In this document: piece by piece, positions 5-24,092 of the stretch
How the letters are laid out: each line of letters begins with the position of its first letter
Numbering within the stretch: the stretch's first letter is position 1
Assembly (NCBI GenBank): GCA_902386535.1
Contig: CABMJK010000024.1
Coordinates: 1 to 56,442 of the forward strand
Source: Candidatus Burarchaeum australiense
GTDB lineage: Archaea; Micrarchaeota; Micrarchaeia; Burarchaeales; Burarchaeaceae
Direction: 5' to 3'
DNA length: 56,442 bases
Made by a program: the position numbers and the translations under genes
Notes under the pieces: generated by a model
Told to the model about the DNA's origin: nothing
The model's database searches: none
The model's input: the letters and a program-made list of their open reading frames with translations, nothing else

Positions 5-649
5 TCAACGGGGCCGGCGTAGCCTGGTGGCCGGTTTTTTGATGCCGCCCCGCGTGGTGGGCTCCATGTGCTGGGCCGGCGCCTCGATTCTGTGCACCTG
101 CAGGCCTGCGTGCCTTATGCGGTCGTGCATGTCCCGGTCCTCGAAATAGCGCAATGACTCGTTGAAGCCGCCCAGGCGCTCGAAGGTCTCGCGCTTGTAG
201 GCATGGGGGACTTCCATTATGTCGCCCGCGGCCCTGCCCGAGAGGTGCGAGATTCTCACGTAGTTGCATTTTTCCATGAAAGTCTTTGGCGGACGCGGGG
301 GGTTGAACCACTGCACCAACTCTACGCCCGGCACACGGAACTTTTTTTCTATGAGGTCGAGCGAGCGTGGATCGAGCAGGACGTCGGCATCGAGAAAAAC
401 CAGTATGCCGCCCTTCGCCTCCCGGGCGCCCAGGTTCTTGGCGGCCGACACGCCCCGACGGGCGCCGCGCACGAGGCGCACTGCCTTGTGTTGTTTTGAG
501 AACTTCCCGACCACTTGCGGGGTCGAATCAGTGGAATCGTCAACCACCACGACCTCGTCCGGCCTGCGGGTCTGGCCAATCACGCGCTCAAGGGTGGCGA
601 GAATCGTGGCCGACTCGTTGTAGGTGGGAATTATGACGCTTATTTTCAT
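5..649 (-). CDS. Family 2 glycosyltransferase
   Basis: ORF MKISVIIPTYNESATILATLERV...VVVDDSTDST...LDADVLLD; GT-A fold GT2 motifs; last gene of the minus-strand operon. Confidence 0.88.
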   Translation of the reverse strand: MKISVIIPTYNESATILATLERVIGQTRRPDEVVVVDDSTDSTPQVVGKFSKQHKAVRLVRGARRGVSAAKNLGAREAKGGILVFLDADVLLDPRSLDLIEKKFRVPGVELVQWFNPPRPPKTFMEKCNYVRISHLSGRAAGDIMEVPHAYKRETFERLGGFNESLRYFEDRDMHDRIRHAGLQVHRIEAPAQHMEPTTRGGIKKPATRLRRPR

Positions 650-652
650 CGA

Positions 653-1435
653 CTAGCCCCTGTCCAGCTTCCTTGCGGTCCATGCCTTCGTGAGATAGGG
701 CACGGAGAGTTCTTTTTTGTCCTTCAGCAGGCCCTCGATTTCGGAGATTATTTTGTCGAAGACCTTCGGCCCGCGCTTTTCGGCCTCGGTCTTCAGGTGG
801 TTCGCGGCCTTCCATGCGCTCACGTAGTTCTCCCTGCTCACGAGGGCCTCGTGCTGGTGCCTCAGCTCAATCACGTCCTCGAAAAACCCGCCTGCCAGCA
901 TGAGCCTGCGCGAGTCCTCGCCGCTCCTGAACTCGCGCGAGAAGCCGGGCACGTTGCGCTGTATTATTTCCTCGACCGCCATCTGCACCGGGTCATCCTC
1001 CTTGACGAGCGGATTCCAGAGCAGCGTGAGGTAACCGCCTTTCTTCAATATCCGGTGGAACTCGGGAATCGAGCGCTTGGCGTCGCTCCAGTGGAAGGCC
1101 GAGGCCATGGTCACCCAGTCCGCCGTCGCATCGGGAAGCCCGGTTTCCTCGGCAGCGCCGGCCCGCCACGTGACATTCGTCAGGTCGCCGCTGTATATCT
1201 TGCCATTCGCCATCATGTCGGCATTGGGCTCCACCGCGATGCAGTGCAGGCCGCGCATGGCGAGCTGGCGCGTCCATATGCCCGTGCCTGCGCCTACGTC
1301 GACCACCGTGCCTTTCTTCCTGAGCACGCCCGTGTAGTTGAGAAGCACGTCGAGCACCAGTTCAGAATAGCCCTGCCGGTATTTCCTGTACTTCTCGCCC
1401 ATGCCCGTGTAGTCTGCGGCCTTTTCCATGTTCAT
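653..1435 (-). CDS. Class I SAM-dependent methyltransferase (candidate phosphoramidate O-methyltransferase)
   Basis: VVDVGAGTGIWTRQLA motif I and FHRILKKGGYL; operon position next to phosphoramidate genes. Confidence 0.8.
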   Translation of the reverse strand: MNMEKAADYTGMGEKYRKYRQGYSELVLDVLLNYTGVLRKKGTVVDVGAGTGIWTRQLAMRGLHCIAVEPNADMMANGKIYSGDLTNVTWRAGAAEETGLPDATADWVTMASAFHWSDAKRSIPEFHRILKKGGYLTLLWNPLVKEDDPVQMAVEEIIQRNVPGFSREFRSGEDSRRLMLAGGFFEDVIELRHQHEALVSRENYVSAWKAANHLKTEAEKRGPKVFDKIISEIEGLLKDKKELSVPYLTKAWTARKLDRG

Positions 1436-1457
1436 CTACCTCTGGCTTTCAGCTCGC

Positions 1458-1988
1458 TTATTTTCTCATGGAGAGCGTCAGTATCTTTCTCGCATTCTGC
1501 GAGAGCTGTGCCCGCGTGTTGTTTTCCAGCACGAGCGCCGGCCTTTTCGGGAACTCGGGCCGCTGGTGGATTCCCATCACATTCCTGCCGCGCGTATAGA
1601 GCAGCTTCTTGTTGCGCCTCAAAAGCTCCTCCTCATCCACCCTGAGTAGCACCTCTACGTAGCGCGCATTGTTCTTCGCGTTGTAAGCGTGGATTTCGTG
1701 GAACAGCGAGATTGTGCTTACCACCACAGTTATGCCCTGCCGCGTCAGTGCGGCCGCGAGCCGCGCATATATGCGCGCGGTCTTCTTCCTGTCCTCGAGC
1801 GAGTGGCCGTGCTCGCCCAGAATAGTGCGCATGACGTCGCCGTCAAGATGCACGGTGTTGGGGCGCTGCCTGCAAAGCCCGGTATACACCTTCTCGGCGA
1901 GCAGGGTTTTGCCGGTGCCTGCTAGCCCGGTTATCCAGACCAGCAGCCCGTGTTTGGCGCGCATGCGTGTTTCACCCACCCAAGCCAT
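1458..1988 (-). CDS. APS kinase-family protein; probable cytidine diphosphoramidate kinase (Cj1415-like)
   Basis: P-loop WITGLAGTGKTLLAEKV, HLDGDVMR, APS kinase-like core; context with Cj1416/1417/1418-like genes and no ATP sulfurylase in the window. Confidence 0.75.
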   Translation of the reverse strand: MAWVGETRMRAKHGLLVWITGLAGTGKTLLAEKVYTGLCRQRPNTVHLDGDVMRTILGEHGHSLEDRKKTARIYARLAAALTRQGITVVVSTISLFHEIHAYNAKNNARYVEVLLRVDEEELLRRNKKLLYTRGRNVMGIHQRPEFPKRPALVLENNTRAQLSQNARKILTLSMRK

Positions 1989-2810
1989 TTATGTCTTTTG
2001 CAGGAAGTCCGAAACTGCTTTCAGGACTTCCTCTTTGCATTTGCCGTTTGTCGCGAGTATGCCGTTGGCAAGGCGGGGCGCAGAATAGTCCAGTGGCCGG
2101 CCCTTGAAGTCGAAGACCTGCCCGCCGGCCTCCTCCAGGATTGCCTGCGGCGCGCACATGTCCCATATTGAAAGCCCGCTGAAGTTCCAATAGAACTCCG
2201 CCCTTGCCTCGGCCATTTCAGCCAGCTTCACGCCTATGCTGCCTTTTTGCACCAGCGTGCCGTTGTCGAGGAAGCGGATGAAGACAGCGTCTTTTGCGGT
2301 AAAGTGGTTCTTGCTGTTTATGAGCCTGAACTCATTCAGGTGCGAGCGCGAAGAGGTATGCAAGTCGGCAACCTTCCCATCGGACTCCACGTGCGCGCCA
2401 TTGCCCTTTTCCGCATAATACGTTTTCCCAAGGGCAGGCAGATGCACCACGCCTAAGACCGGCTGCCTGCGCTCGAGAAGGCCGATCATGACCGCAAACT
2501 CGCCGGTCCTGCGCACGAAATCCATGGTGCCGTCGAGCGGGTCCACGACCCACATCTTGTCTTTCGGCAGTTCAGCCTCCGTTTGTTCCTCCTCGCTAAT
2601 CACCGCGTAGCCGGTCTTCTTCAGCCCGTCCAGAATTATGCTGTTCGAGGCCAAATCCGCCTTTGTGAGCTCGCTCCTATCAGGCTTGAGCTCGACCTTG
2701 CTGCCGGCCTTGGCATCGCTGGCGTAAATGCGCATTATTTCCTTGCCCGCATCGATGGCCAGAATTTTTGCGGCAAACAGGTCCTTTGAGAATTTCATTT
2801 CCAAAACCAT
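1989..2810 (-). CDS. Inositol monophosphatase/CysQ-family 3'-phosphonucleotide phosphatase
   Basis: EEEQTE, WVVDPLDGTMDF and WDMCAPQAILEEAGG metal-binding motifs. Confidence 0.85.
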   Translation of the reverse strand: MVLEMKFSKDLFAAKILAIDAGKEIMRIYASDAKAGSKVELKPDRSELTKADLASNSIILDGLKKTGYAVISEEEQTEAELPKDKMWVVDPLDGTMDFVRRTGEFAVMIGLLERRQPVLGVVHLPALGKTYYAEKGNGAHVESDGKVADLHTSSRSHLNEFRLINSKNHFTAKDAVFIRFLDNGTLVQKGSIGVKLAEMAEARAEFYWNFSGLSIWDMCAPQAILEEAGGQVFDFKGRPLDYSAPRLANGILATNGKCKEEVLKAVSDFLQKT

Positions 2811-3463
2811 TTTCTGTCCACGAACGCGCGCATGAGCTTGTCATTGAACTCCGCGTCAGGCGACTCGCGCTCCGGGTGCCACATTATGCCGGCAATGGGC
2901 AGGCCGGGATGGTACGCGCCTTCCACCAGGCCGTCGGCCGTGACTGCAAAGGCCTTCAGGCCGCGGGCGAGTTCGCCCGTGTCGAATCCGAAATCATGGT
3001 AGGAGTTCACGGTCGTTCTTTTTTTCCCGAAATCCGCCTTTTCGCACTTGAGGAGTTCGACCGGGTGGAAGCTGGCAACGTGGTCTTTCACCATGCGCAG
3101 TTTTCCGCCGAAATAAACGTTCAGGAACTGCAGGCCACGGCACACGCACAGCACCGGCAGGCGCTCGGCTTCGGCGAATTGCAGCAGGGCCTTTTCGGTT
3201 GCGTCGCGCTCTTCAGCCACGTTGAGGCCCGCACTTTTGCTCACGCCGTAGAGTTCGGGATTGACGCTGTTGCCGCCCGAGAGAATCATGCCGTCCGGCT
3301 TGAGCTCCCGCAGGTAGGCAGGGATGTTGGGGAGCACGTTCGACACGGGCAGGAGGGTGAGGCCGAACGCACCGTAATATTGCACGTAGCTCTGCTCAAG
3401 GCAGTCGCGCCTCGCGCCCTTGTGCTCGGCGCACACCCGCTGCGATATCGCGATCCGCTTCAT
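2795..3463 (-). CDS. Class I glutamine amidotransferase-like (peptidase C26) hydrolase; probable gamma-glutamyl-CDP-amidate hydrolase (Cj1417-like)
   Basis: MILSGGNSVNPELYG, nucleophile VLCVCRGLQFLN, IMWHPERE triad region. Confidence 0.78.
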   Translation of the reverse strand: MKRIAISQRVCAEHKGARRDCLEQSYVQYYGAFGLTLLPVSNVLPNIPAYLRELKPDGMILSGGNSVNPELYGVSKSAGLNVAEERDATEKALLQFAEAERLPVLCVCRGLQFLNVYFGGKLRMVKDHVASFHPVELLKCEKADFGKKRTTVNSYHDFGFDTGELARGLKAFAVTADGLVEGAYHPGLPIAGIMWHPERESPDAEFNDKLMRAFVDRKWFWK

Positions 3464-3482
3464 CGTTTCACCTGCAAACCAC

Positions 3483-4295
3483 TCACCAGGTCATGTTAAT
3501 GAACCTATTCATCGTGCCGTCAGCTATCCACGAAAGCGCCTTTTCGTAGTCTTCGTTGGTGTCGAACTCCAGCCACCCGTGCGAGGTGCGGACCGCCTTC
3601 ACGGGCACGCGCAGGTCGATGAGCGCCTGCAGCATGCACGTCATCTGCGCTTTCCTGAAGCACATGGAGTGCATCCAGGGCTCGTCGCTTTCCCATAGCT
3701 TTTTCTTGTTCTCATCGAACAAGCGGATGAATTCGGAAACGCCTTTTTTCGAGAAGCGCAGCATGCCGACATAGCGGGCCATTGCCTTTTCGAGAGGGCA
3801 GTTCGGCGCTCCCAGCTCCACGATGTTGTCCTTCTTGTCGATGGCCATGCTTTCAACGTCCTCCTTCCACTTTCCGCCCAGCCGCGCCTTCCAGTAGTCG
3901 AGCCAGTCATCGTCCACCAGCACGCCCATATCGCCCTTGAACGCCATCATCTTCTTCACCAGCGCAGGCTCGTAGAGGATGTCAGAATAAAGGACGAGCG
4001 CGCCGTCGGGCGAGCCGAGCAGCTCGCCGCGCGCCATCACCAGCGTGGCGACCATGTTCGTGGTTGCGTAGTCCGGATTAAGCATGTAGCTCACGCCGCG
4101 GACTTGCGGAATCTTGTCGGCCATGTAGCCGCGCACGACGACGATGTCGCTCTTGGGCACGCCGGCCTCGGCCAGGGCTTCGAGCTGCCGCTCAAGCAGG
4201 GTCTTGCCCCTGACCGAGAGCATGCACTTCGGCATGTCCTTGGTGTATTTGCCCAGGCGCGTGCCGCTGCCTGCCGCGAGGATTATCGCTTTCAT
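3483..4295 (-). CDS. Nucleotidyltransferase; probable CTP:phosphoglutamine cytidylyltransferase (Cj1416-like)
   Basis: MKAIILAAGSGTRLGKYTKDMPKCMLSVRGKTLLERQL signature; operon context. Confidence 0.78.
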   Translation of the reverse strand: MKAIILAAGSGTRLGKYTKDMPKCMLSVRGKTLLERQLEALAEAGVPKSDIVVVRGYMADKIPQVRGVSYMLNPDYATTNMVATLVMARGELLGSPDGALVLYSDILYEPALVKKMMAFKGDMGVLVDDDWLDYWKARLGGKWKEDVESMAIDKKDNIVELGAPNCPLEKAMARYVGMLRFSKKGVSEFIRLFDENKKKLWESDEPWMHSMCFRKAQMTCMLQALIDLRVPVKAVRTSHGWLEFDTNEDYEKALSWIADGTMNRFINMTW

Positions 4296-4314
4296 GCTGG
4301 TTTGCCTCTTGAAA

Positions 4315-6681
4315 TTACATTACCGCTTTTATGTACTTCGACGCGCAGTTCAATTCCACTTTCCCGCAGCCCTTCACGAAGTTGAATAGCGTGGCCCCGC
4401 AGCCAATGGCAGCCGGCATCTTGAACTCGGCGGCCCTGATGGTCATGTGCGAGGCCGCGCCGCCGAACTCGGTTATCAGGCCTGCGATGTCGTGGCTGAA
4501 AATCCAGTCATAGCCCGGGTCGGCATTCTGGATGAGCACTATCTTGCCCGCCAGCTCGAGAGGCCTGGAGTTCGCGCTCAGGTCGAACACCTCGGCGCAG
4601 ACCGTCTTCTGCGTCACGTAGTTGGGCATCATGTCGGTCGAGGTGAAATATTCGACGCTCCGGTCCATGAAGATAAGGGGCGGGAAGCGGAAGAGCTTCA
4701 TCATCGCATAGGCATTCCTGTTCCTTCCGATTTTTTCCTTCATGCCCGCGAGCGAGTCGTGGATGCGCGAGGAATGCGAGAACTTCAGGATGTCGTCTAT
4801 CGTGAGGAAGGCCAGGTCCTCGCGCGAAAGCCCGTGCTTCGAAAGATACTGCTCGACGTACACGAGCATGAGGCTCAGGTTCTTCGTGAACTCGAGCTTG
4901 GACAGCTCGCGCGCCATTGTGGACTTGCGCACGAACGCGAGCAGCTGGTCGGCTGAGACCGAGAAACCGTGCGCCTTCAGCTCGGCGGATATTTTCTTCT
5001 TCGTCGCAGCGCTGAACTCGAAATCCTTCCCGCCCCGCGCGGGCTCGGTGAAGTTCTTCAGGTCGACGTAGCCGTCGAAGCTCTCGGCATAGGTGTGCGA
5101 GCAGATGTCGTAGGTGCCGGGCCTGAGGTGTCCGTATTCCTCCATGAACTGCCGCCGCGTAATCGCGCCCCGCTTGAGCTCGCCGAGCTTGTGCAGGAAG
5201 TCAGTGGCCACCGTGCTGATGGAGGCGAAGAACCGGTCGTACTCGTCCTGCGTGATGATTTTCTTGCGCAGCAGCGAGCGCATGAGCGCGGCGCTTATGA
5301 AGGCGAAGCGCGCGAGTTTGCTGAAGGGCAGCGTGCCGTACATCTTGCAATCGTGGCCCAGTTGCGCGATCTTGCTCGGCAGGGGTATGTCAGACGCGAC
5401 TATTTTCTCGCGCCTCTTCCGCATCTGCTCGGACAGCCCGACCTCGCGCTCGATGGAGGTCACGCGCCCGGCCAGTATGTCGTCCGTGAGAGTGAACAGG
5501 CACGATTTCATCTCGGCTATTTCGGCCTTGGAAAAACCTTCGGCCGCCATTTCCTTTTCTATTTCCCCGTAATCGAGAACGTAGCAGGTATAGACGACCT
5601 TGAACTCGACCTTGTCGTGGAAATCCTGGAAGCGGCGGAGCTTGCGCAGGTAGAAGTTCACGAGCTTTTCCGAAGTTGCGGCCGAGAGCGAGGCAGGCAG
5701 GAAGGTGTTGAAGCTCATGCGTATGTCGACGTAGGGCTTGCCCGCGAGCGAGCAGATGCCCGGCTGGTAGCCTATCGCCTTGTAGCCCACTTCCTCGCGC
5801 GCCTGCGGCCAGACGGTGTCCGTGATGAGGTGGCGGTAGAGAGAGAAGGCGAGCGGCTTCGGGTCGACGCCGATTATCTCCGCGGGATTCCAGTCGGGCA
5901 TTATCCCGTAGGCCACGTTGCTGCCCGCCAGGTTCGGGAACGGCCTGTCGTTTTCGCGCACGAAATCCTTCACGTGCTCGAGCGTGTCCCTGAATTCCTT
6001 GTCCGTGCAGACCTTCTGCTTTGCGATGGTTATGGGCCGCACCTGCAGGGTATGGAGCTTGTCGCCCGCAATCACGAACTCGATGTCCAGCGAGTCGCAG
6101 CCAGTCGCCTTTTCTATCTCGCGCACCGCCTCGATTACCTGCGCCATGTATTTGTCCGAGGGCGTGCGGCCGTAGAGCTTGCAATAGGTGAAAATCTTCT
6201 GCCTGCCGCTGGAGCCGGAAGTTATTACGTCGGTCCTGCCGCTCAGGTCGTCGTAGTTTATCACGTAATAGGGCGCGCCGGTCTCGAGGTCGCGCGTGAA
6301 GGCCACGCCACTCAGCTGCACCTTCCCGACTTGCTGCTGCACGAGAACCAGGTTTCCATCGTCGCTGTTCCTCTTTTCGCTGTAGCTGCCCACCACCTTC
6401 TCGACCGCGGCAGTTATGGCGGCCGGAGAGGCGGCGTCTACGTCAAGGACGCTCCTGAAGCAGCCGGCCATGGAGCTGGCCTGCGAGTCCTCGTTCAGCG
6501 CGCTGCTCCGCACGACTATCTTCTGCCCTTTCACGAACTTCGCCCGCACTTTCGCCACCGCGGCCGCGGCATCGGCCTTCCACTCGCGCACCGTAAAATG
6601 CAGGAGGGGCGGGATTTCGGACTTGCGGAGCCGGCCCTGCAGCCTCTCGAGGGTCTCGGCCTTGGTTGAGAATTCAAACAT
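4315..6681 (-). CDS. PEP synthase-like phosphotransferase; probable L-glutamine kinase (Cj1418-like)
   Basis: N-terminal PPDK/PEP-synthase ATP-grasp (IVVRSSALNEDSQASSMAGCF, LVLVQQQV, LDIEFVI..LHTLQVRPI) and C-terminal phosphohistidine domain GLITEFGGAASHMTIRAAEFKMPAAIGCG; ATG at 6681 preferred over the upstream TTG at 6708. Confidence 0.8.
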   Translation of the reverse strand: MFEFSTKAETLERLQGRLRKSEIPPLLHFTVREWKADAAAAVAKVRAKFVKGQKIVVRSSALNEDSQASSMAGCFRSVLDVDAASPAAITAAVEKVVGSYSEKRNSDDGNLVLVQQQVGKVQLSGVAFTRDLETGAPYYVINYDDLSGRTDVITSGSSGRQKIFTYCKLYGRTPSDKYMAQVIEAVREIEKATGCDSLDIEFVIAGDKLHTLQVRPITIAKQKVCTDKEFRDTLEHVKDFVRENDRPFPNLAGSNVAYGIMPDWNPAEIIGVDPKPLAFSLYRHLITDTVWPQAREEVGYKAIGYQPGICSLAGKPYVDIRMSFNTFLPASLSAATSEKLVNFYLRKLRRFQDFHDKVEFKVVYTCYVLDYGEIEKEMAAEGFSKAEIAEMKSCLFTLTDDILAGRVTSIEREVGLSEQMRKRREKIVASDIPLPSKIAQLGHDCKMYGTLPFSKLARFAFISAALMRSLLRKKIITQDEYDRFFASISTVATDFLHKLGELKRGAITRRQFMEEYGHLRPGTYDICSHTYAESFDGYVDLKNFTEPARGGKDFEFSAATKKKISAELKAHGFSVSADQLLAFVRKSTMARELSKLEFTKNLSLMLVYVEQYLSKHGLSREDLAFLTIDDILKFSHSSRIHDSLAGMKEKIGRNRNAYAMMKLFRFPPLIFMDRSVEYFTSTDMMPNYVTQKTVCAEVFDLSANSRPLELAGKIVLIQNADPGYDWIFSHDIAGLITEFGGAASHMTIRAAEFKMPAAIGCGATLFNFVKGCGKVELNCASKYIKAVM

Positions 6682-6816
6682 CGCTACCGCGGAGAATTCC
6701 GGCGGCAATCTTAAAAGCAGTTTCTGGCAGTTTGGAGGTTTTGGCAGTTCTGGAGGTTCTGGTGCTTTGGCGGTTCTGGCGGTTCGGCGCTTCGGCGCTT
6801 TGGCGCTTTGGCGGCC

Positions 6817-7947
6817 TTAGCGGTATTTCAGGTAGAGATAGCAGAAGCGCGCGTAAAGGAAGGCCTCCTCGGCCATGATGCCGGCATGGATGCCCAGCTT
6901 CAGCAGCGTGCGCACTACAGGCACCCTGGCGCAGGAATCGTAGGCACGCTGCAGCCCGGCGCGCTTGGGCTTCAGGAAGCGCATGGAGTGCAGGTCCAGG
7001 AACTGGGAGAAGAGCACGCGGTAATTCAGGGGAATCTTCTCGTGCGCGGGCCCGCCTTTTTCCGGCTCGTAGGGCTCGTAGCCGAACTCGTCCATTATGC
7101 CCTTCTGGAAGACATCCTGTATGTAGAAAAGTTCGAAGGGGCTGAGCTTCTGCTTCCAGTCGTCCTTCACGAACCGCGGGTCGGGCCGCGTGGAGGTGAG
7201 CTTGTTCGCCGAGAGCGGCCCGCTCTTGTTCGTGCCGTCCCATTTTTTCCCATAGTAGGTCGCATCGTCCATGCATGCATTGTCGGAAATGCCGAGGAAC
7301 GCGCACAGCTTTTTCCTCACCGAAGCATAGTGTCTGTGCAGGTCCTCGTGCCGCATGAAAAGGATTTCCCGCGGCCTGAAGGCATGGCGGTAAATGTGCA
7401 GCAGGAGCGAGGGCGCAAGTATGAAGCGGTAAGTCGGGAAGGAATCCGCGGTTTTCCTGCCCGAAAGCTGCGAGGCGCGGGGATCGCGCACCGTGATTAT
7501 GATCCTCTTCCTAGCCCAAAAAGCCCTGCGCGCGCGCAGCACGTCCTTGATTGCCGCGTGCGTGTGGAAGACGATCCACTTCACCCTCCGGAGGTCCTTT
7601 TTCCTCAGGACCGCGAGCGCGTAGTGCGTGCCTATGAATGCGGTTTTGTCGGAAAGGCCGAACGCCGAGACGTAGGCGAGGAAGTGCGGCTTGAACTGCT
7701 CGAAGCTGAAGGGGAACTCAAAGGGTGTGGCCTCGGCCCACATCGGATTGCGGGCGTAGCCGTAGGCGATGCGCGCCGCCTGCTCGGGCGTTGTGCCGGC
7801 CGGCAGTTCGGGATAGCGGGAGGTGAAGCCCTGCACGAGCTCAGGGTGGCGGTCAAGAAGGGCGTTTAGGAAAAGGCTGCTGGACCTGTTCAGGGGCTCG
7901 ATGAGCAGAAGGCCCATCTTTTCAGGCTCGAAATTGTGGAACTCCAT
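6817..7947 (-). CDS. Sulfotransferase-family protein
   Basis: LLIEPLNRSSSLFLNALLDRHPEL (5'-PSB-like) and IIITVRDPRASQLSGR (3'-phosphate-binding-like). Confidence 0.7.
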   Translation of the reverse strand: MEFHNFEPEKMGLLLIEPLNRSSSLFLNALLDRHPELVQGFTSRYPELPAGTTPEQAARIAYGYARNPMWAEATPFEFPFSFEQFKPHFLAYVSAFGLSDKTAFIGTHYALAVLRKKDLRRVKWIVFHTHAAIKDVLRARRAFWARKRIIITVRDPRASQLSGRKTADSFPTYRFILAPSLLLHIYRHAFRPREILFMRHEDLHRHYASVRKKLCAFLGISDNACMDDATYYGKKWDGTNKSGPLSANKLTSTRPDPRFVKDDWKQKLSPFELFYIQDVFQKGIMDEFGYEPYEPEKGGPAHEKIPLNYRVLFSQFLDLHSMRFLKPKRAGLQRAYDSCARVPVVRTLLKLGIHAGIMAEEAFLYARFCYLYLKYR

Positions 7948-8014
7948 GCAGGTCTTTGACGCTTTCGGCGCACAACTTATTATTTATAGCTACCCAAAGG
8001 TGGCCGTGGTTTGG

Positions 8015-9220
8015 ATGGGGGAAACCGGAGGCGGCAGGGAAATCCGAGTTCTGATGGACTTCGGCGCCTCGGGCAGGCACCATTCGCTCTATGACGAGCT
8101 TCTGCAGGCGCCTCCGGAAGGCATCCGCTATGTCGTGCCCCGCCTGCCGGTGTCGCGGTTTCCGAAGGCAGCGGTGCACATCTATCACCGCATAAGGAGC
8201 GGGCTCGAGGGAAAGGTGGACCTGGCGGCGGTGGCGAGGCGCGTCAACCGCGCGGCCGCGGGAAGCGGGGCAGACCATGATGTCGTCCACTTCGCGAACC
8301 ACCTGGACCCGGCACGAGAGCCGTTCGTGGCAGATTTCGAGCAGGCCCTTTCCCTGCTTCACGCACCGACCGGCACGGGAAGGGTCGAGGCGGATTTCGC
8401 CCGTATCAGGGAGGCGCGGACCAGGCTCATGGAATCCGCCGAGTGCAAGTTCCTGCTTCCGTGGACCGAACAGGGCGCAAAGACGGTGTGGGCTGCCTTC
8501 CCGTCGGCAAAGATAAGGAAGAAGACAAAGGTCGTGAGGCTTGCCATGAGGGTGCCTGAGGAGCACAAGCCCATCAAGCACGACAAGTTCCGCGTGCTTT
8601 TCCTAGGCACGAGCAACCTGAGCGGAGAATGGAATTTCTACTATCGCGGGGGCCACCGGATGCTGAAGGTGTTCGAGAGATTCGCCAGGGGCAGGAAAGG
8701 CTCGGTTGAACTCGTGGTGACCGGCGAGATTCCGCAGCGCGAGCGGCCACTCACCGAGCGCATCGGGTGCTGCAGGGCGGCGGGGCTGCTCAGAAAGGAG
8801 GAAATGGGCCACCTGTTCAGGACTAGCGACGTGCTGCTCTATCCCGCCTACGCGACTCCGGGGCTCGCGTTTCTCGAGGCCATGCGCTACCACATGCCGA
8901 TAGCGACCACGGACGCGTGGGCCAACAGGGAAATAGTTGGCCACATGGAGAACGGCCTCGTGACTCCGTTCACGGAATTCAAAACGCGCGGGAAGTTCGG
9001 GCTTCCGCCAATGCTCGACGCGTTCATGGACTTCGAGCTCAACTGTTCGGACACCGGGCTGGAAAATGGCCTGGTGCAGTCCCTTGAAAAGCTCTACGGC
9101 TCGCCGCGCCTGAGGAGCCGGCTGGGCGAGAACGGCTTCAGGCAGGTGAGCGCCGGGAAGTGCAGCATAGGCGAGAGGAACCGCAGGCTCAGGAAAATAT
9201 ATGAGGCATGCCTGAGTTAA
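8015..9220 (+). CDS. Glycosyltransferase family 4-like
   Basis: FLGTSNLSGEWNFYYRGGHRMLKVFERF, DVLLYPAYATPGLAFLEAMRYHMPIATTD; ATG at 8015 with an upstream TATA-like tattatttata. Confidence 0.8.
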   Translation: MGETGGGREIRVLMDFGASGRHHSLYDELLQAPPEGIRYVVPRLPVSRFPKAAVHIYHRIRSGLEGKVDLAAVARRVNRAAAGSGADHDVVHFANHLDPAREPFVADFEQALSLLHAPTGTGRVEADFARIREARTRLMESAECKFLLPWTEQGAKTVWAAFPSAKIRKKTKVVRLAMRVPEEHKPIKHDKFRVLFLGTSNLSGEWNFYYRGGHRMLKVFERFARGRKGSVELVVTGEIPQRERPLTERIGCCRAAGLLRKEEMGHLFRTSDVLLYPAYATPGLAFLEAMRYHMPIATTDAWANREIVGHMENGLVTPFTEFKTRGKFGLPPMLDAFMDFELNCSDTGLENGLVQSLEKLYGSPRLRSRLGENGFRQVSAGKCSIGERNRRLRKIYEACLS

Positions 9221-9238: not shown

Positions 9239-10243
9239 ATGGGGCGGGTCGATTGCATGGTGGATGCGAAAAAAACGGGCGCGGGGAAGAAAACCGGAAG
9301 GCCCATTGTCACCGTGGTCATGATAACCTACAACGGCGTGCGCTACATTGACGATGCGGTCGGGAGCCTGCTCGGGCAGAGCGACAGGAATTTCGAGGTC
9401 GTGATGCTGGACGACTGCTCCACGGACTCGACGCCCGAGAAGGTGCGGGAGGCCCGTGAGAAATTCCGGAAGGCGGGCATAGCGTGCCGGACTTTCAGGA
9501 ACGAGCGCAACCGCGGAACGGGTTACTCGTGGGATCGCGTCTCGAGGCTTTCCGAAACGCCCTGGATAATGTTCCTTGCGGACGACGACATGTACCTGCC
9601 GCGCAAGGTCGAGCGCACCCTGGGATTCATAAAAAGCCATCCGGCCGCGCCCTGGTTTTACCATGACGTGGTCATAATGAAGGAGGCGACCGGCGAGAAG
9701 AAGGGATACGCGATACCGCAGTTCAACACGGGCCGGGATTCCATGCGGCACTTCTTCGAGCTCGCGCTCGCGAATTGTTTCATGGTTCACAATGCGGTCG
9801 CCATAAGGAAGGACGTCTACGAGAAGGCGGGCGGCTTCAGGGACCTGCGCGGGGTCGAGGACTTCGACTTCTGGATGAGGCTCATCGAACAGGGCTTCCT
9901 GCCGCAGAAGATGGAGGGCGAGCCGCTTCTGGTCTACAGGAGCAGGGGCCTGGATGCGAGCCGCTTCCCCTACCAGAGCTACTACGGCTCCTTCGTGCAG
10001 GTGATGAACGATTTCCTCGACAGGCAGGGGCTGGCGAAGACTGCGGACCGGGAAACGCTGGCGCTTGCGCGCGAATTCAGGACCGGAATTTACATCGCAT
10101 ATTTGATGCGCTCGGCAAGGCGCGGGAACTTCTCGCTTGCGCTCAGGGCGTTCGGGGGCATGGTGAGGCGGGATTTCTCGCCCGTGCAGTTCGCGAAGAT
10201 GTCCGTTAACAAGTTTTCCAGGATATTCAAGGGCGAAAATTAG
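9239..10243 (+). CDS. Family 2 glycosyltransferase
   Basis: IVTVVMITYNGVRYIDDAVGSLLGQS...LDDCSTDSTPE...LADDDMY. Confidence 0.88.
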   Translation: MGRVDCMVDAKKTGAGKKTGRPIVTVVMITYNGVRYIDDAVGSLLGQSDRNFEVVMLDDCSTDSTPEKVREAREKFRKAGIACRTFRNERNRGTGYSWDRVSRLSETPWIMFLADDDMYLPRKVERTLGFIKSHPAAPWFYHDVVIMKEATGEKKGYAIPQFNTGRDSMRHFFELALANCFMVHNAVAIRKDVYEKAGGFRDLRGVEDFDFWMRLIEQGFLPQKMEGEPLLVYRSRGLDASRFPYQSYYGSFVQVMNDFLDRQGLAKTADRETLALAREFRTGIYIAYLMRSARRGNFSLALRAFGGMVRRDFSPVQFAKMSVNKFSRIFKGEN

Positions 10244-10294: not shown

Positions 10295-11443
10295 TCATCT
10301 GCCGACCTTCTTTCCGTGCGCATCGGCTGCGCGGGCCGTCGTCTCAACCACATAAGCTGTTTCCTCATCGGTCATGCCAGGCCAGATGGGCAGCGAAAGT
10401 ATGCGCCTCGCCAGCTTCTCGGTGCCGCGCAGCGGCGTCTTGCGGAAGGGCAGGTGCTCGGCATAGGCCTTCTGCTGGTGGCAGGGAATCGGGTAGTGGA
10501 TTTGGGCGCGCACGCCCGCATCGTTCAGCTGCTTGATGACCGCGTCGCGTATGGTTTCGTGCACCTGCACCACGAAGAGGTGGTAAACGTGGCGCCCGCC
10601 TGGGCGCTCGCGCTGGAGCCTCATCAGCGCGCGCTTTTCGAGTTCCCCGAGGCCGGCCACATATTTTTGCGCAATGGCGCGGCGCTGCTCGTTCCATTCG
10701 TGCATGCGCTTCAGCTTGGCAGACAGGAACGCGGCCTGGAGCCCGTCAAGGCGGGAGTTGAAGCCCAGCGAATCATGGTAGTATTTCACCTTTGAGCCGT
10801 AGTTGCGCATGGCCGCAACCGAGTCGGCGAGCGCGTCATCGTCAGTGCAAACTGCCCCGGCGTCGCCCAGGGCCCCGAGGTTCTTGCCTGGGTAGAAGCT
10901 GAAGGCCGCGGCCTTGCCAAAGGTGCCCGCATTCTTTCCGCCGAGGCTCGAACCGTGAGCCTGGCATGCGTCCTCGAGCAGGAGGAGGCCGTGCGCCTGC
11001 GCAATCTCGCCCAACCTGCCCATGTCCGCGCACTGGCCGTAGAGATGCACGGGCATGATGGCCTTTATTTTCTTGGACTTGGAAATCGCGCGCTCCACTG
11101 ATTCCGGCGCAAGGCAGTAGTATTCGTCGACCTCGGCGAAAACCGGCCTGGCACCTGCCAGCGTGACGGCGAACGGCGTGGCCACGAACGTGTGGGAAGG
11201 CACGACAACCTCGTCGCCCTTGCCTATGCCAAGCGCCCTGATCATGAGGACGAGGGCATCGGTGCCGCAGGCCACTCCGAGCGCGCGCTTGGCGCCCACA
11301 AATTTCGCGAACTCGGACTCGAAGGCCTCGACCTCCTTGCCAAGTATGAAGCCAGAACTTGAGAGCACGCGGCCGTAGGCCGCATCGAGCTCGGGCCGCA
11401 TGGCCTCGTGGATGCGCCCAAGATTAACAAAGGGAATTTCCAT
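10295..11443 (-). CDS. DegT/DnrJ/EryC1/StrS sugar aminotransferase
   Basis: IPFVNLGRIHEAM, GVACGTDALVLMIRALGIGKGDEVVVPSHTF, LLLEDACQAHGS, AFSFYPGKNLGALGDAG (PLP lysine). Confidence 0.92.
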   Translation of the reverse strand: MEIPFVNLGRIHEAMRPELDAAYGRVLSSSGFILGKEVEAFESEFAKFVGAKRALGVACGTDALVLMIRALGIGKGDEVVVPSHTFVATPFAVTLAGARPVFAEVDEYYCLAPESVERAISKSKKIKAIMPVHLYGQCADMGRLGEIAQAHGLLLLEDACQAHGSSLGGKNAGTFGKAAAFSFYPGKNLGALGDAGAVCTDDDALADSVAAMRNYGSKVKYYHDSLGFNSRLDGLQAAFLSAKLKRMHEWNEQRRAIAQKYVAGLGELEKRALMRLQRERPGGRHVYHLFVVQVHETIRDAVIKQLNDAGVRAQIHYPIPCHQQKAYAEHLPFRKTPLRGTEKLARRILSLPIWPGMTDEETAYVVETTARAADAHGKKVGR

Positions 11444-11458
11444 TTGATCACCGCATGC

Positions 11459-12463
11459 TTACGCGGAGCTCGAACCCTTCACCTGCTCGTTTATGCGCTC
11501 TATCAGGTCGGTAACCACGAGGCCGAAGGATATGTCGGTTTCGGGTTTCTTCCCGCTGCCGATGCAGTCAATGAAATGCGAGGCCATGTTGGCAAGCGGC
11601 TCGCGGGACTTTATGTACGGGATTATTGTCGAGCCAGGGTTGCATTGCACTACGAAGTCCATATAGGTGGCGGGCGCCTCGAGCGGCCCCTTTATCTCCT
11701 TCTCGTGCACCTCGACCTTGCCCGCAACCCTGACGTCGTCGAATTCCGCCATCTTCCTATCGCCCAGAATCATCACCTTGCGCAGCTTCACGGGCGAGAG
11801 CGAACTCACCATGAGCGTGACCGTCAGGTCGCCGTAATCGAGATAGGCAAAGGCCTCGTCCTCCACGCCCTTTATGAAATGGCTCTTGCCCACCGCGGTC
11901 AGCCTGCGGGGCTTGGCGGCCTTTTCGCCCAACCAGTAGACGAGCATCGAGACGTCGTGGGTCATCAGGTCCTCGACGACGTTCACGTCCCGCCGCAGGA
12001 ACTCGATTGCCTGCCGCTGGAACTGGAATGCGTGCAGGGTGCCCAGCTCCTGCTTGTCGAGCAGCGTTTTCAGGTAGCGCACGCTGTCCCCGTAGATGAA
12101 AGTGTAATCCACCATCAGCGTCAGTTTTTTCTCATGCGCGAGCTTCGCGAGCTCGCGTGCATCCTCCACGTTGGTGGTGACGGGCTTTTCGACAAGCACG
12201 TGCTTGCCGGCCTCGAGCGCGAGCTTGGCCAGTGCATGGTGGGTTTTGGGCGGCGTGGCGATTATGACCGCGTCCACGTCCGGCAGGACCTCTTCGAAGG
12301 AGGAAACCACTTTGATGAACGGATACTCCTCGGCCGCCCGCTCGCGCTTCTTCGCGTCCAGGTCGACGATGTAGCGGAGCTCGGCGCCCTTTGCCTTCGA
12401 GAAGTTCCTCGCGAGGTTGGGACCCCAATAACCGTAGCCCACGAGGACGAGCCTCACAGCCAT
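11459..12463 (-). CDS. Gfo/Idh/MocA-family oxidoreductase
   Basis: MAVRLVLVGYGYWGPNLARNF Rossmann start, IIATPPKTHHALAKLALEAGKHVLVEKPVTT; start trimmed to ATG at 12463. Confidence 0.88.
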   Translation of the reverse strand: MAVRLVLVGYGYWGPNLARNFSKAKGAELRYIVDLDAKKRERAAEEYPFIKVVSSFEEVLPDVDAVIIATPPKTHHALAKLALEAGKHVLVEKPVTTNVEDARELAKLAHEKKLTLMVDYTFIYGDSVRYLKTLLDKQELGTLHAFQFQRQAIEFLRRDVNVVEDLMTHDVSMLVYWLGEKAAKPRRLTAVGKSHFIKGVEDEAFAYLDYGDLTVTLMVSSLSPVKLRKVMILGDRKMAEFDDVRVAGKVEVHEKEIKGPLEAPATYMDFVVQCNPGSTIIPYIKSREPLANMASHFIDCIGSGKKPETDISFGLVVTDLIERINEQVKGSSSA

Positions 12464-12517
12464 GACGGGAATTCGACTCAGAAGGCTTTTATTCGTTTGG
12501 ACGGCCTTGATGTAGGC

Positions 12518-13474
12518 ATGGCTGAAGGCCCTAAAATCGCGGTCATCGGAAACGGCACGATAGCGGTCGAGTGCTGCGCCCACCTGCTGGGCCTGGGCGA
12601 GAACGTCGCGTTCATAGTCGGAGACCACAAGGACGACGGGAGGGACGGCTGGCAGAAGTCTCTCGCGAAATTCGCGCGCGGGCACGACATCCCCTTCCAC
12701 CAGCCAGAGGGCATAAACGAGCAGAAGTGGTACGACTTCTTTGCAAAGGAGGCGCCGGACTTCCTGCTGTCTTTCCAATACCGGTTCATAATCAGGCGGC
12801 AGATAATCGGGAGCGCGCGAAAGCTGGCCGCGAACCTGCATTTCGCGCCCCTGCCCCGCTACCGCGGCATGTACCCTATAGCCTGGGCGCTGCTCAACGG
12901 CGAGAAGGAGTTCGGGGTCACGATACATGAGATAGACCCGGGAGTGGACTCGGGGGACATAATCGCGCAGAAGCTTTTTTCCGTCGAGGAAAGCGACACC
13001 GCGAGAACGCTTTACTTCAAGGCAGTCGAGAAAGGCGCCGAGCTTTTCCGCGAGGCGTGGCCCTCGATGCGCGGCATGAGCTTCAGACGCACCCAGCAGG
13101 ACCCGGCCAAGGCGCTCTACAACCCGAAGGGCTCGATTGATTTTTCCAGGAACCGCATGGACTGGTCGCTGCCGGCCGAGAAGGCGTTCAACTTCGCGCG
13201 CGCCTTCATCTTCGTGCCCTTCCAATTGCCCACCATGATGCATGAGGGCAATGAGCTGAAGATTGTGAGGGTGAGAAAGGCGGATGCAAAAGGCGGGAGC
13301 AGGACGGGGGCGAAGCCAGGCACCGTGCTTGCGGTTTCCGACGAGGGGGCGGAGGTTGCCTGCGGTTCGGGCTCGCTGGTCGTGGCGCTCACGGACGAAG
13401 TCTCCGAGCAGGTGCTGCCGCAGTGCGAGTTCATGAAAAAATATGGAATAAGGAAGGGGGCCTCGCTAGGCTGA
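12518..13474 (+). CDS. Formyltransferase (Fmt-like; likely sugar N-formyltransferase)
   Basis: IAVIGNGTIAVECCAHLL, NLHFAPLPRYRGMYPIAWALLNGEKEFGVTIHEIDPGVDSGDIIAQ (HxPLPxxRG...D motifs); start trimmed to ATG at 12518. Confidence 0.85.
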   Translation: MAEGPKIAVIGNGTIAVECCAHLLGLGENVAFIVGDHKDDGRDGWQKSLAKFARGHDIPFHQPEGINEQKWYDFFAKEAPDFLLSFQYRFIIRRQIIGSARKLAANLHFAPLPRYRGMYPIAWALLNGEKEFGVTIHEIDPGVDSGDIIAQKLFSVEESDTARTLYFKAVEKGAELFREAWPSMRGMSFRRTQQDPAKALYNPKGSIDFSRNRMDWSLPAEKAFNFARAFIFVPFQLPTMMHEGNELKIVRVRKADAKGGSRTGAKPGTVLAVSDEGAEVACGSGSLVVALTDEVSEQVLPQCEFMKKYGIRKGASLG

Positions 13475-13483
13475 GCAACAGAC

Positions 13484-14203
13484 TCAAACCTGCTTGGACT
13501 TTCTCGCTATCGTGCTTGCGCGGTATAGGGACTCGAACGTGCCAGCGTCGGTCCAGTCGCCCTTCAGAAGGTGGAAGCCCAGCTTGTCGGCCTTCACGTA
13601 GTGGTTGTTAACGTCCGTAATCTCGTACTCGCCGCGCGCGCTTGGCTTGAGCGAGCGGATGACGCTGAAAACGGATGGCGAGTAGAGATAGAGGCCGATG
13701 ACCGCGTAGTTGCTCTTCGGCTTCGCGGGCTTCTCGATTATCGAGACTATTTTTTCGCCGCTGACTTCGGCCACCCCGAAGCGGTTGGCATCGGGCACGG
13801 CCTTGAGAAATACCACGGCCTCGTCCTTGCCCGCATCGAACGCGCGTATCGCGCCGCCCACGTCCTCGTCGATTATGTTGTCGCCCAGGATTACGGCGAA
13901 CTTCGAGCTGCCCGCGAAATCCTCGGCCAGCGAAAGGGCCTGCGCTATGCCGCCGCTCTCGTCCTGCAGCCTGTACGTGAGCCTGCACCCGAGGTCATGG
14001 CCGCTGCCGAGCAGCTTCATGAAATCGCCCGCGCTCTCCTTGCCCGTGACTATCAGGATGTCGGTTATGCCGGCCTTCAGCAGCGTGTTGAGAGGATACA
14101 AGATCATGGGCTTGTCGTAGACAGGCAGCAGGTGCTTGTTCGTAATTTCTGTGAGGGGCCTGAGCCTCGTGCCCGCCCCGCCTGCAAGAATCACTCCGCG
14201 CAT
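13484..14203 (-). CDS. Glucose-1-phosphate thymidylyltransferase-like
   Basis: MRGVILAGGAGTRLRPLTEITNKHLLPVYDKPMILYPL, VILGDNIIDED; start trimmed to 14203. Confidence 0.85.
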   Translation of the reverse strand: MRGVILAGGAGTRLRPLTEITNKHLLPVYDKPMILYPLNTLLKAGITDILIVTGKESAGDFMKLLGSGHDLGCRLTYRLQDESGGIAQALSLAEDFAGSSKFAVILGDNIIDEDVGGAIRAFDAGKDEAVVFLKAVPDANRFGVAEVSGEKIVSIIEKPAKPKSNYAVIGLYLYSPSVFSVIRSLKPSARGEYEITDVNNHYVKADKLGFHLLKGDWTDAGTFESLYRASTIARKSKQV

Positions 14204-14292
14204 AGAATCAACCTCCACAAAATAATCACACGCCATCAGTTCGTCTTTCCTTCCTCCTCCCGCGTTTTCATCATCGCCATCATCTCGCGCCA

Positions 14293-15225
14293 TCAGTTCG
14301 TCTTCCCCTCTTCCTCCTGCTTTTTCATCACCATCAGCCCGTGCTCCGAATTCAGAAGTTTCACGCCCGTCTCGTGCTCGGTCCTGGACACGTCGAGGCA
14401 GCCGTTCATGGGCCGGGCCGCGGCCTGGCGCAAGTCCGCTGTCTTGACGGGCGAGATCAGCGTGTCGTCCAGGCCAAAGACCTGCGCAGCCTTGAGCGCG
14501 AACTCGAACCTGCTCAGGCAGTCATTGCCCGTGACGTGCCAGAGGCCGGTCTTCTCGAGCTCCACCAGGCGCAGCAAAACTTCGGCCGCATTGTCGGCCA
14601 GCGTCGGCCCGTTGTACTGGTCGTCGACTATCTTGACCGGCTTGCGTGCGCGCAGCTCACCCAGCAGCCAGGTGACGAAATTCTTTTTCACCGGGTGCCA
14701 GCCGTAGATTACGCTCGTGCGCGCCACCAGGTTGTCCGCATCCATGCCCAGCAGCTCGCCCTCCGCAGTCGACTTGCTCTCGGCATAGACGCTCTCGGGA
14801 TTCGGCTCGTCCTCGGGCTTGTACTTGCCCCGCTTCTTCCCGTCGAAAACGTAGTCTGTTGACATGAACAAATACTGCGCGCCGATTTTCTCGCATGAGG
14901 TAGCAAGGTTCAGCGAGGCATCCACATTTATGAGCCTGGCTTTTGCCGGGTCGGTCTCGCACGCGTCAACCACGTGGAAGGCAGCTGTGTTGATGACTGC
15001 TTCGGGCTTCAGCTCGCGCACGAGCCTGCTGGCAGATTCCAAGTCAGCCACGTCAAGCAGATGGCCGGGCCCGGGGTGCCAGCTCGCGCCCGTGTGGTAA
15101 GTGTAGTCCACGCTGAACTTCCCGCTGGCGCGCGCCTTCTGCACGAGCCTGTTGCCGAGCAAGCCGAGGCCGCCGATTACGAGCAAGGATTTCATCATAC
15201 CACCTTCACCGCACGGATGCGGCAT
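14293..15225 (-). CDS. dTDP-4-dehydrorhamnose reductase-like (RmlD/SDR)
   Basis: LLVIGGLGLLGNRLVQKA, NTAAFHVVDACETDP, STDYVFDGKKRGKYKPEDEPNPESVYAESK. Confidence 0.85.
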   Translation of the reverse strand: MPHPCGEGGMMKSLLVIGGLGLLGNRLVQKARASGKFSVDYTYHTGASWHPGPGHLLDVADLESASRLVRELKPEAVINTAAFHVVDACETDPAKARLINVDASLNLATSCEKIGAQYLFMSTDYVFDGKKRGKYKPEDEPNPESVYAESKSTAEGELLGMDADNLVARTSVIYGWHPVKKNFVTWLLGELRARKPVKIVDDQYNGPTLADNAAEVLLRLVELEKTGLWHVTGNDCLSRFEFALKAAQVFGLDDTLISPVKTADLRQAAARPMNGCLDVSRTEHETGVKLLNSEHGLMVMKKQEEEGKTN

Positions 15226-16006
15226 CCTTCTTCGAATGCACGTTCGCGAACTCGCCCGACACGAGGCAGCCAGAGAGCTTGCCGAGCTTGCTCAGCCGCG
15301 CGAACTGCGCGTCCAGCGGGCCTTTGGCCTCGAGCAGCGAGAAGATTTCGGGCTCCGCGAAGCCAGTCATTGTGGCGACCAGATGGCTCTCGCTTTTCGC
15401 TGGCTTCTCCCAGTAGCGCGTGATGAGGCTGCCGTCCATCATCACGAGCGAGCTCTTTGTCCAGGCAAAGCCGGTGCCATAATAGACTGCGAGCGTGACC
15501 GGGTTGTCCTGGCGCCTGTGGAACTTTAGCACTGTTGAAAGGTCAAAAGTGAAGTAGTGGTCGCAGGGCACGAACAGGAACGTGCCGCTTATGTGCGGCC
15601 GGGCCAGAGCGAGCGTGTGTGCGCTGCCATTGTGCTCCTTTTCCTCGACGTATTTCAGCGAGACGCCGGCCGAGGCGCCGTTCTCGAACTCGTTGAATAT
15701 TGCAGCGTTCACCTTGTGCGAGCCCACAATCATGATGTCCGTGAAGCCGGCCTCGCGGAGCCTTTCGAGCGAGTGGGCGAGCAGCGGCTTGCCCTTCACA
15801 GGGATGAGCGGCCGGTAAGTGTGCGCATCCGCAGACCAGAGGCCCTCAGCAGGCCCGCCCGCCAGCACAACGGCAGTTCGCTTCGCGCCCACGCTGCGGC
15901 CTATGAGCCCCTCAATGGCCTCCGAGCGCGTGCCCTCGCCGTGCTGCGCGTCGAATTCCTTCATGAGGCCCTCGTCGAGCGAGAGCGAAACCCTGACTTT
16001 TGCCAT
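15206..16006 (-). CDS. Ribbon-helix-helix domain fused to sugar nucleotidyltransferase
   Basis: N-terminal MAKVRVSLSLDEGLMKEFDAQHGEGTRSEAIEGLIGRS (RHH/CopG-like), then TAVVLAGGPAEGLWSADAHTYRPLIPVKGKPLLAHSL. Confidence 0.75.
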   Translation of the reverse strand: MAKVRVSLSLDEGLMKEFDAQHGEGTRSEAIEGLIGRSVGAKRTAVVLAGGPAEGLWSADAHTYRPLIPVKGKPLLAHSLERLREAGFTDIMIVGSHKVNAAIFNEFENGASAGVSLKYVEEKEHNGSAHTLALARPHISGTFLFVPCDHYFTFDLSTVLKFHRRQDNPVTLAVYYGTGFAWTKSSLVMMDGSLITRYWEKPAKSESHLVATMTGFAEPEIFSLLEAKGPLDAQFARLSKLGKLSGCLVSGEFANVHSKKDAASVR

Positions 16007-22015: not shown

Positions 22016-22176
22016 ATCACCGATTCAATGGTTCTCTGGAGGAAGCCGCGCAGGGGCGGCCAGGACAGGATGAGGAAGAGCCAGTAGAGCGTGAAGCCGG
22101 CGTAGGCCAGCGCGAGCAGCTGCGCATCGCTGAGCTTCTTCAGCGAAGAGGAGATGTTGCTGATTTTCTCACCCAT
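22012..22176 (-). CDS. Small (54 aa) predicted membrane protein
   Basis: Manual translation MGEKISNISSSLKKLSDAQLLALAYAGFTLYWLFLILSWPPLRGFLQRTIESVI*; overlaps the stop of the upstream membrane GT (GAATATGGGTGA) and the start of the GT4 gene. Confidence 0.6.
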   Translation of the reverse strand: MGEKISNISSSLKKLSDAQLLALAYAGFTLYWLFLILSWPPLRGFLQRTIESVI

Positions 22177-24028: not shown

Positions 24029-24092
24029 GGTTTCACCGGTTGGTTCGCGGTTTGGAATACGAATAAAAACATATGCAAGCTATTTATAGGAT

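Follow-up and report, generated by a model that had tools for sequence, protein, structure and literature searches.

A probable phosphoramidate donor operon in a glycan island of the archaeon Candidatus Burarchaeum australiense

A nearly gapless operon of seven minus-strand genes in Candidatus Burarchaeum australiense (Micrarchaeota), running from position 7947 to 653, quite probably serves to synthesise a phosphoramidate donor in activated form and to pass the group on, the expected acceptor being an N-glycan or another surface glycan. The window analysed is an entire contig (C24; 56,442 nucleotides) of this 1.2-Mb genome, which is 91% complete. The sequences of the predicted proteins give the donor pathway good support, its first four steps resting on homology and catalytic residues as well as on linked genes and natural fusions, while the assignments of transferase, methylation and acceptor are no more than reasoned guesses; in the absence of biochemical or glycan data for this archaeon, transfer, by-product clearance, methylation and acceptor are all inferred. 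P-N bonds are rare in biology. Since one archaeal operon here unites the donor genes with one methyltransferase, a possible transferase and a phosphatase for the by-product, both the transfer of amidate by sulfotransferase-fold enzymes and the identity of the methylating enzyme become testable with few proteins, and the operon suggests that archaeal N-glycans may bear a modification never looked for.

In C. jejuni, Cj1415-Cj1418 convert glutamine, ATP and CTP into CDP-phosphoramidate 3'-phosphate (PMC11800397). In the archaeal operon the glutamine kinase homologue would open the pathway, followed by activation with CTP to give gamma-glutamyl-CDP-amidate; the hydrolase would then take off the glutamyl group, leaving CDP-amidate, whose ribose 3'-OH would be phosphorylated by the APS-kinase-like protein. 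The sulfotransferase-fold protein may then transfer the amidate onto a hydroxyl group of a sugar, the 3'-phospho-nucleotide playing the part that PAPS has for sulfotransferases; the by-product 3'-phospho-CMP would be cleared by CysQ, and the methyltransferase would O-methylate the tag or its donor.

The genes are transcribed in the order sulfotransferase fold, kinase, nucleotidyltransferase, C26 hydrolase, CysQ/IMPase, APS-kinase-like and methyltransferase, and then a GT2 gene; all seven proteins were found with the folds, placement and order given in the original prediction, which had also rightly set them inside a glycan island, as AglB/STT3, several glycosyltransferases and sugar-nucleotide genes share the contig (Table 1). 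The hydrolase and CysQ genes overlap by 16 nt, and the CysQ gene directly abuts that of the APS-kinase-like protein. Upstream of the operon lies an exact TATAAATA box, inferred to be a promoter element (TATA box); the window holds 2 such boxes against 0.08 expected by chance. The second (24081-24088) stands upstream of a minus-strand gene for a PMT_2-like membrane glycosyltransferase (22169-24028).

Table 1. Features of the window referred to in the text, with the match or observation on which each rests.
Feature	Position	Strand	Basis
GT2 glycosyltransferase	5..649	-	PF00535 6e-27; at contig end
SAM methyltransferase, homologue of Cj1419/Cj1420 pair	653..1435	-	PF08241
APS-kinase-like P-loop kinase, proposed CDP-amidate 3'-kinase (Cj1415 type)	1458..1988	-	NF004041
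CysQ/IMPase phosphatase	1989..2810	-	PF00459 3e-51
C26/GATase-type hydrolase, proposed gamma-glutamyl-CDP-amidate hydrolase (Cj1417 type)	2795..3463	-	NF045546
Nucleotidyltransferase, proposed phosphoglutamine cytidylyltransferase (Cj1416 type)	3483..4295	-	full-length homology
L-glutamine kinase homologue (Cj1418 type), 788 aa	4315..6681	-	NF004508; phospho-His at residue 745
Sulfotransferase-fold protein, proposed phosphoramidate transferase	6817..7947	-	PF00685 E 1.8e-5
TATAAATA box, putative TATA box	7981..7988	-	exact match; 33 nt upstream of first operon start codon (ATG at 7947)
GT4 glycosyltransferase, divergent	8072..9220	+	PF13692
GT2 glycosyltransferase	9239..10243	+	PF00535
Sugar-nucleotide genes: DegT aminotransferase, GFO/IDH/MocA oxidoreductase, formyltransferase (+ strand), RmlA-like, RmlD-like, second nucleotidyltransferase	10295..16006	.	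Pfam
AglB/STT3 oligosaccharyltransferase	31958..34693	-	PF02516 2.8e-12; AglB core-like 6.6e-6

As a yardstick, a Campylobacterota locus (L125) was used whose gene order copies cj1413-cj1425. It contains heptose genes, a MeOPN transferase, two methyltransferases, the kinase, hydrolase, nucleotidyltransferase and 3'-kinase, and a KpsC-like protein, the heptose genes and the latter being assigned from sequence and position, and its transferase scores 739 bits against a cut-off of 600 in the curated MeOPN transferase family (NF058596). Five window proteins align full-length with their L125 counterparts at 27-38% identity. In a search of curated families the window kinase exceeds the cut-off of NF004508 (855 against 501 bits), the same family in which the L125 kinase reaches 1175 bits, and the two are 36% identical over 788 aa. 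The phospho-His motif GGAASH lies 43 residues before the C-terminal end and is kept in 86 of 86 kinase relatives. Sequence evidence supports placing the product in one family with the Campylobacter glutamine kinase, and phosphorylation of the L-glutamine amide itself is inferred. A phmmer search of the kinase against PDB sequences gave no match at E 0.001. The reading as PEP synthase or rifampin phosphotransferase was rejected, the best score, 65 bits, lying far below the cut-off of 883. In public records the kinase family is labelled 'PEP-utilizing enzyme' or 'hypothetical protein', and relatives on Azospirillum, Vibrio, Cupriavidus and Agrobacterium plasmids (records H1-H14, e.g. NZ_CP029835.1 and NC_011981.1) are almost always annotated as just a PEP-utilizing or PEP/pyruvate-binding enzyme.

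The nucleotidyltransferase is 29-34% identical over its full length (about 255 aa) to Campylobacter-type orthologues (31% for that of L125), with which it has the motifs TNM, Y.DI.Y and D..W...W..R in common. Its best PDB match is CTP:phosphocholine cytidylyltransferase, and both base and substrate are inferred, there being no curated family model for the Cj1416 type. The hydrolase, 27% identical to its L125 counterpart, keeps the Cys/His/Glu motifs CRG, VNSYH and WHPER in alignment with Campylobacter-type orthologues, and its best NCBIfam family is NF045546 with 88 bits; because this misses the equivalog cut-off of 250, the protein can be termed only Cj1417-like and not a proven family member. 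The L125 hydrolase passes that cut-off with 327 bits, and relatives from Sulfuricurvum and Helicobacteraceae likewise fall under it (122-190 bits). A PuuD reading was rejected, PuuD reaching 44 bits in the comparison of curated families. The proposed 3'-kinase, the one APS-kinase-like protein found in the genome, scores 151 bits with NF004041 (cut-off 127), a model that itself carries the label adenylyl-sulfate kinase, and is 38% identical to its L125 orthologue, which reaches 292 bits. Identification as a canonical APS kinase was set aside, with apsK at 81 bits under its cut-off of 138.7.

The original prediction had placed the four folds of Cj1415-Cj1418 together in near pathway order, and would have been refuted had the kinase clustered with PEP synthase or rifampin phosphotransferase, the P-loop kinase with canonical APS kinases and the hydrolase with PuuD-type enzymes. 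This did not occur: the homologues were confirmed and the refuting matches score far lower, at most 65 against 855 bits for the kinase, with NF004041 preferred over apsK for the P-loop protein and NF045546 (88 bits) over PuuD (44 bits) for the hydrolase. The residues it had singled out, the phospho-His of the Cj1418 type and the Cys/His/Glu of Cj1417, are present, and its Cj1417-type hydrolase stands as regards best family and catalytic motifs but not as regards the curated cut-off.

For the later steps, the AlphaFold2 model of the sulfotransferase-fold protein (pLDDT 79) is matched best in the PDB by PAPS-dependent tyrosylprotein sulfotransferases with PAP (E 9e-8), at a modest TM-score of 0.47/0.62. 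The protein conserves the RDPR...S motif, which in sulfotransferases binds the 3'-phosphate; it has no NCBIfam match, and so none to the O-methyl phosphoramidate transferase family NF058596. The CysQ protein scores 175 bits with TIGR01331, under the cut-off of 228.8, and its removal of the 3'-phosphate from 3'-phospho-CMP is inferred. Since a Sulfuricurvum cassette (L046:28-4500) also has CysQ, there between hydrolase and nucleotidyltransferase, this association is not confined to archaea. The methyltransferase is 35% identical over 263 aa (E 2.5e-51) to the L125 protein in the Cj1420 position. Two types of methyltransferase occur, both of them in Campylobacter but only one in any DPANN cassette: the window enzyme, with those of L011 and L013, is closer to the Cj1420-position protein, whereas those of L006, L007 and L012 resemble the Cj1419-position protein more.

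Scanning each species through a single genome gave at least 538 loci related to the cassette, and the best 80 are spread over Micrarchaeota, Pacearchaeota, Woesearchaeota, Altiarchaeales, Haloarchaea and many bacterial phyla. The haloarchaea Natronomonas gomsonensis and Haloferax elongans, both in culture, have the core genes. Kinase, hydrolase and nucleotidyltransferase genes are grouped together in nearly all of these best 80, so their association is not due to chance. Moreover, among the matches listed, the glutamine kinase carries an N-terminal domain of the window's 3'-kinase family (203-218 bits) at 9 loci of Acidobacteria and Gammaproteobacteria (L039, L040, L047, L048, L058, L059, L070, L084 and L089; e.g. 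L048:7423-10389), and a domain of the Cj1416-like nucleotidyltransferase family (82-215 bits) in the same place at 21 others (such as L043:9308-12388, L033:9116-12358 and L015:9314-12358); these fusions tie both families to one pathway. At one Altiarchaeales locus (L050:3150-3750) the N-terminal domain of the kinase is of the CTP_transf_like type instead.

Among 65 loci with enough flank, sulfotransferase-fold genes accompany the cassette in 22 of 39 with the 3'-kinase against 2 of 26 without it, and the methyltransferase in 26 of 39 against 1 of 26, while glycerophosphotransferase-like genes occur in 10 of the 26 without and in none of the 39 with. The latter genes, of the CDP-glycerol glycerophosphotransferase-like kind, were seen at L030:13736-14863 and nine other loci, only in cassettes without the 3'-kinase, which hints at a variant pathway with CDP-amidate as the direct donor. 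Fisher p-values for these associations are small; on the kinase tree, however, they rest on no more than 4-6 independent contrasts, which almost all point the same way but do not reach significance, and the co-occurrence pattern supports a PAPS-like logic without proving it. A broader proposal is for now evenly balanced between acceptance and rejection: that phosphoramidate tagging of surface glycans is widespread in prokaryotes, archaeal N-glycosylation included, and follows two designs, one with 3'-phospho-CDP-amidate and a sulfotransferase-fold enzyme in the manner of PAPS, the other with CDP-amidate used directly, perhaps by glycerophosphotransferase-like enzymes.

Occurrence of the cassette is patchy. 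The kinase is found in 3 of 301 Micrarchaeota genomes, not including the one other sampled from the same genus, and in 9 of 371 and 5 of 394 genomes of two further archaeal phyla; the hydrolase lies above its curated cut-off in 54 of 298 Campylobacterota genomes, and none of the viral contigs searched encodes a relative. Horizontal spread is the likely cause, as an inference. The kinase tree requires at least 4 changes of domain for the archaeal kinases overall, and in it the window kinase falls within a supported (98) six-member DPANN clade together with two Micrarchaeota and three Pacearchaeota/Nanoarchaeota. DPANN sequences also cluster in the nucleotidyltransferase (95) and 3'-kinase (97) trees; as the methyltransferases split into two types despite this clustering, the cassette is not strictly one evolutionary block.

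The alternative that survives best, unlikely but not to be neglected, is that the phosphoramidate is unmethylated, or carried by a lipid, protein or small molecule rather than a glycan, with the methyltransferase acting elsewhere. Knockouts of Cj1419 and Cj1420 produced no visible change, methyl transfer remaining unassigned even in C. jejuni (PMC11800397), and Campylobacter phosphoramidate is found without the methyl group too (PMC9561416), but the methyltransferase tracks the 3'-kinase across the loci compared above and the operon is surrounded by glycan genes with AglB. Because AglB lies in the same window, decoration of an N-glycan is likely, and it has not been shown. In this regard, the predicted capacity of the archaeon for phosphoramidate-modified surface glycans is borne out for the donor pathway by family scores and residues, whereas placement on a glycan is still an inference.

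Considerably less probable is an ordinary PAPS sulfation module, formed by the APS-kinase-like, CysQ and sulfotransferase-fold proteins and merely adjoining the phosphoramidate genes. All three resemble PAPS-pathway proteins, down to a putative transferase whose fold matches PAPS sulfotransferases, but NF004041 scores above apsK for the kinase, the same kinase domain is fused to glutamine kinase in 9 genomes among the matches listed, and neither ATP sulfurylase (PF01747; CysN lay outside the search) nor PAPS-reductase/CysD (PF01507; found in 14 of 14 controls) was detected in the 91% complete genome. Sulfation is unlikely because these proteins were not detected, although the missing sulfate pathway could reflect a gap in the assembly. 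A bacterial origin of the contig, with misplacement into an archaeal bin, is scarcely credible, for all that the pathway was previously known from bacteria and bin contamination is 5.4%, since AglB on the same contig marks the genome as archaeal, the TATA boxes exceed chance, GC is even and the closest kinases lie in two other Micrarchaeota, one of them on a 921-kb contig, within the supported DPANN clade.

The phosphoramidate operon is less novel than was first claimed, and the cassette more general than was then known. MeOPN genes have been described across Campylobacter (PMC3907429), and a 2022 review termed the glutamine kinase C. jejuni-specific (PMC9561416). No report of a phosphoramidate cassette in DPANN, or of a version with a sulfotransferase-fold protein and CysQ, was found in the open-access literature, subscription papers being outside the search. 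The claim that nothing similar was described in archaea proved too strong, given the patchy presence in several archaeal phyla, the at least 538 related loci and an O-methyl phosphoramidate cluster reported in 2025 in the Cobalt Borg element of Methanoperedens, an archaeon (PMC12660748). That cluster is likewise archaeal, with phosphoglutamine cytidylyltransferase-like proteins within a glycoconjugate region; it differs in being extrachromosomal and was assigned there via predicted structures (PMC12660748). With PAPS-dependent sulfation the operon shares the APS kinase, sulfotransferase and CysQ folds and the scheme of a 3'-phosphorylated nucleotide donor followed by by-product removal, but the genome is without a detected ATP sulfurylase and the proposed donor would be based on CDP-amidate, not adenosine. 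The MeOPN system of C. jejuni comprises Cj1415-Cj1418 and Cj1419/Cj1420, with Cj1421/Cj1422 as transferases. Each of the four donor enzymes has a homologue in the archaeal operon, which also holds a homologous methyltransferase; the four donor genes stand in the pathway order kinase, cytidylyltransferase, hydrolase and 3'-kinase. In contrast to Campylobacter, the operon has a sulfotransferase-fold protein where the NF058596 transferase stands, an inserted CysQ and one methyltransferase instead of two, and it belongs to an N-glycan (AglB) island rather than to a Kps capsule locus.
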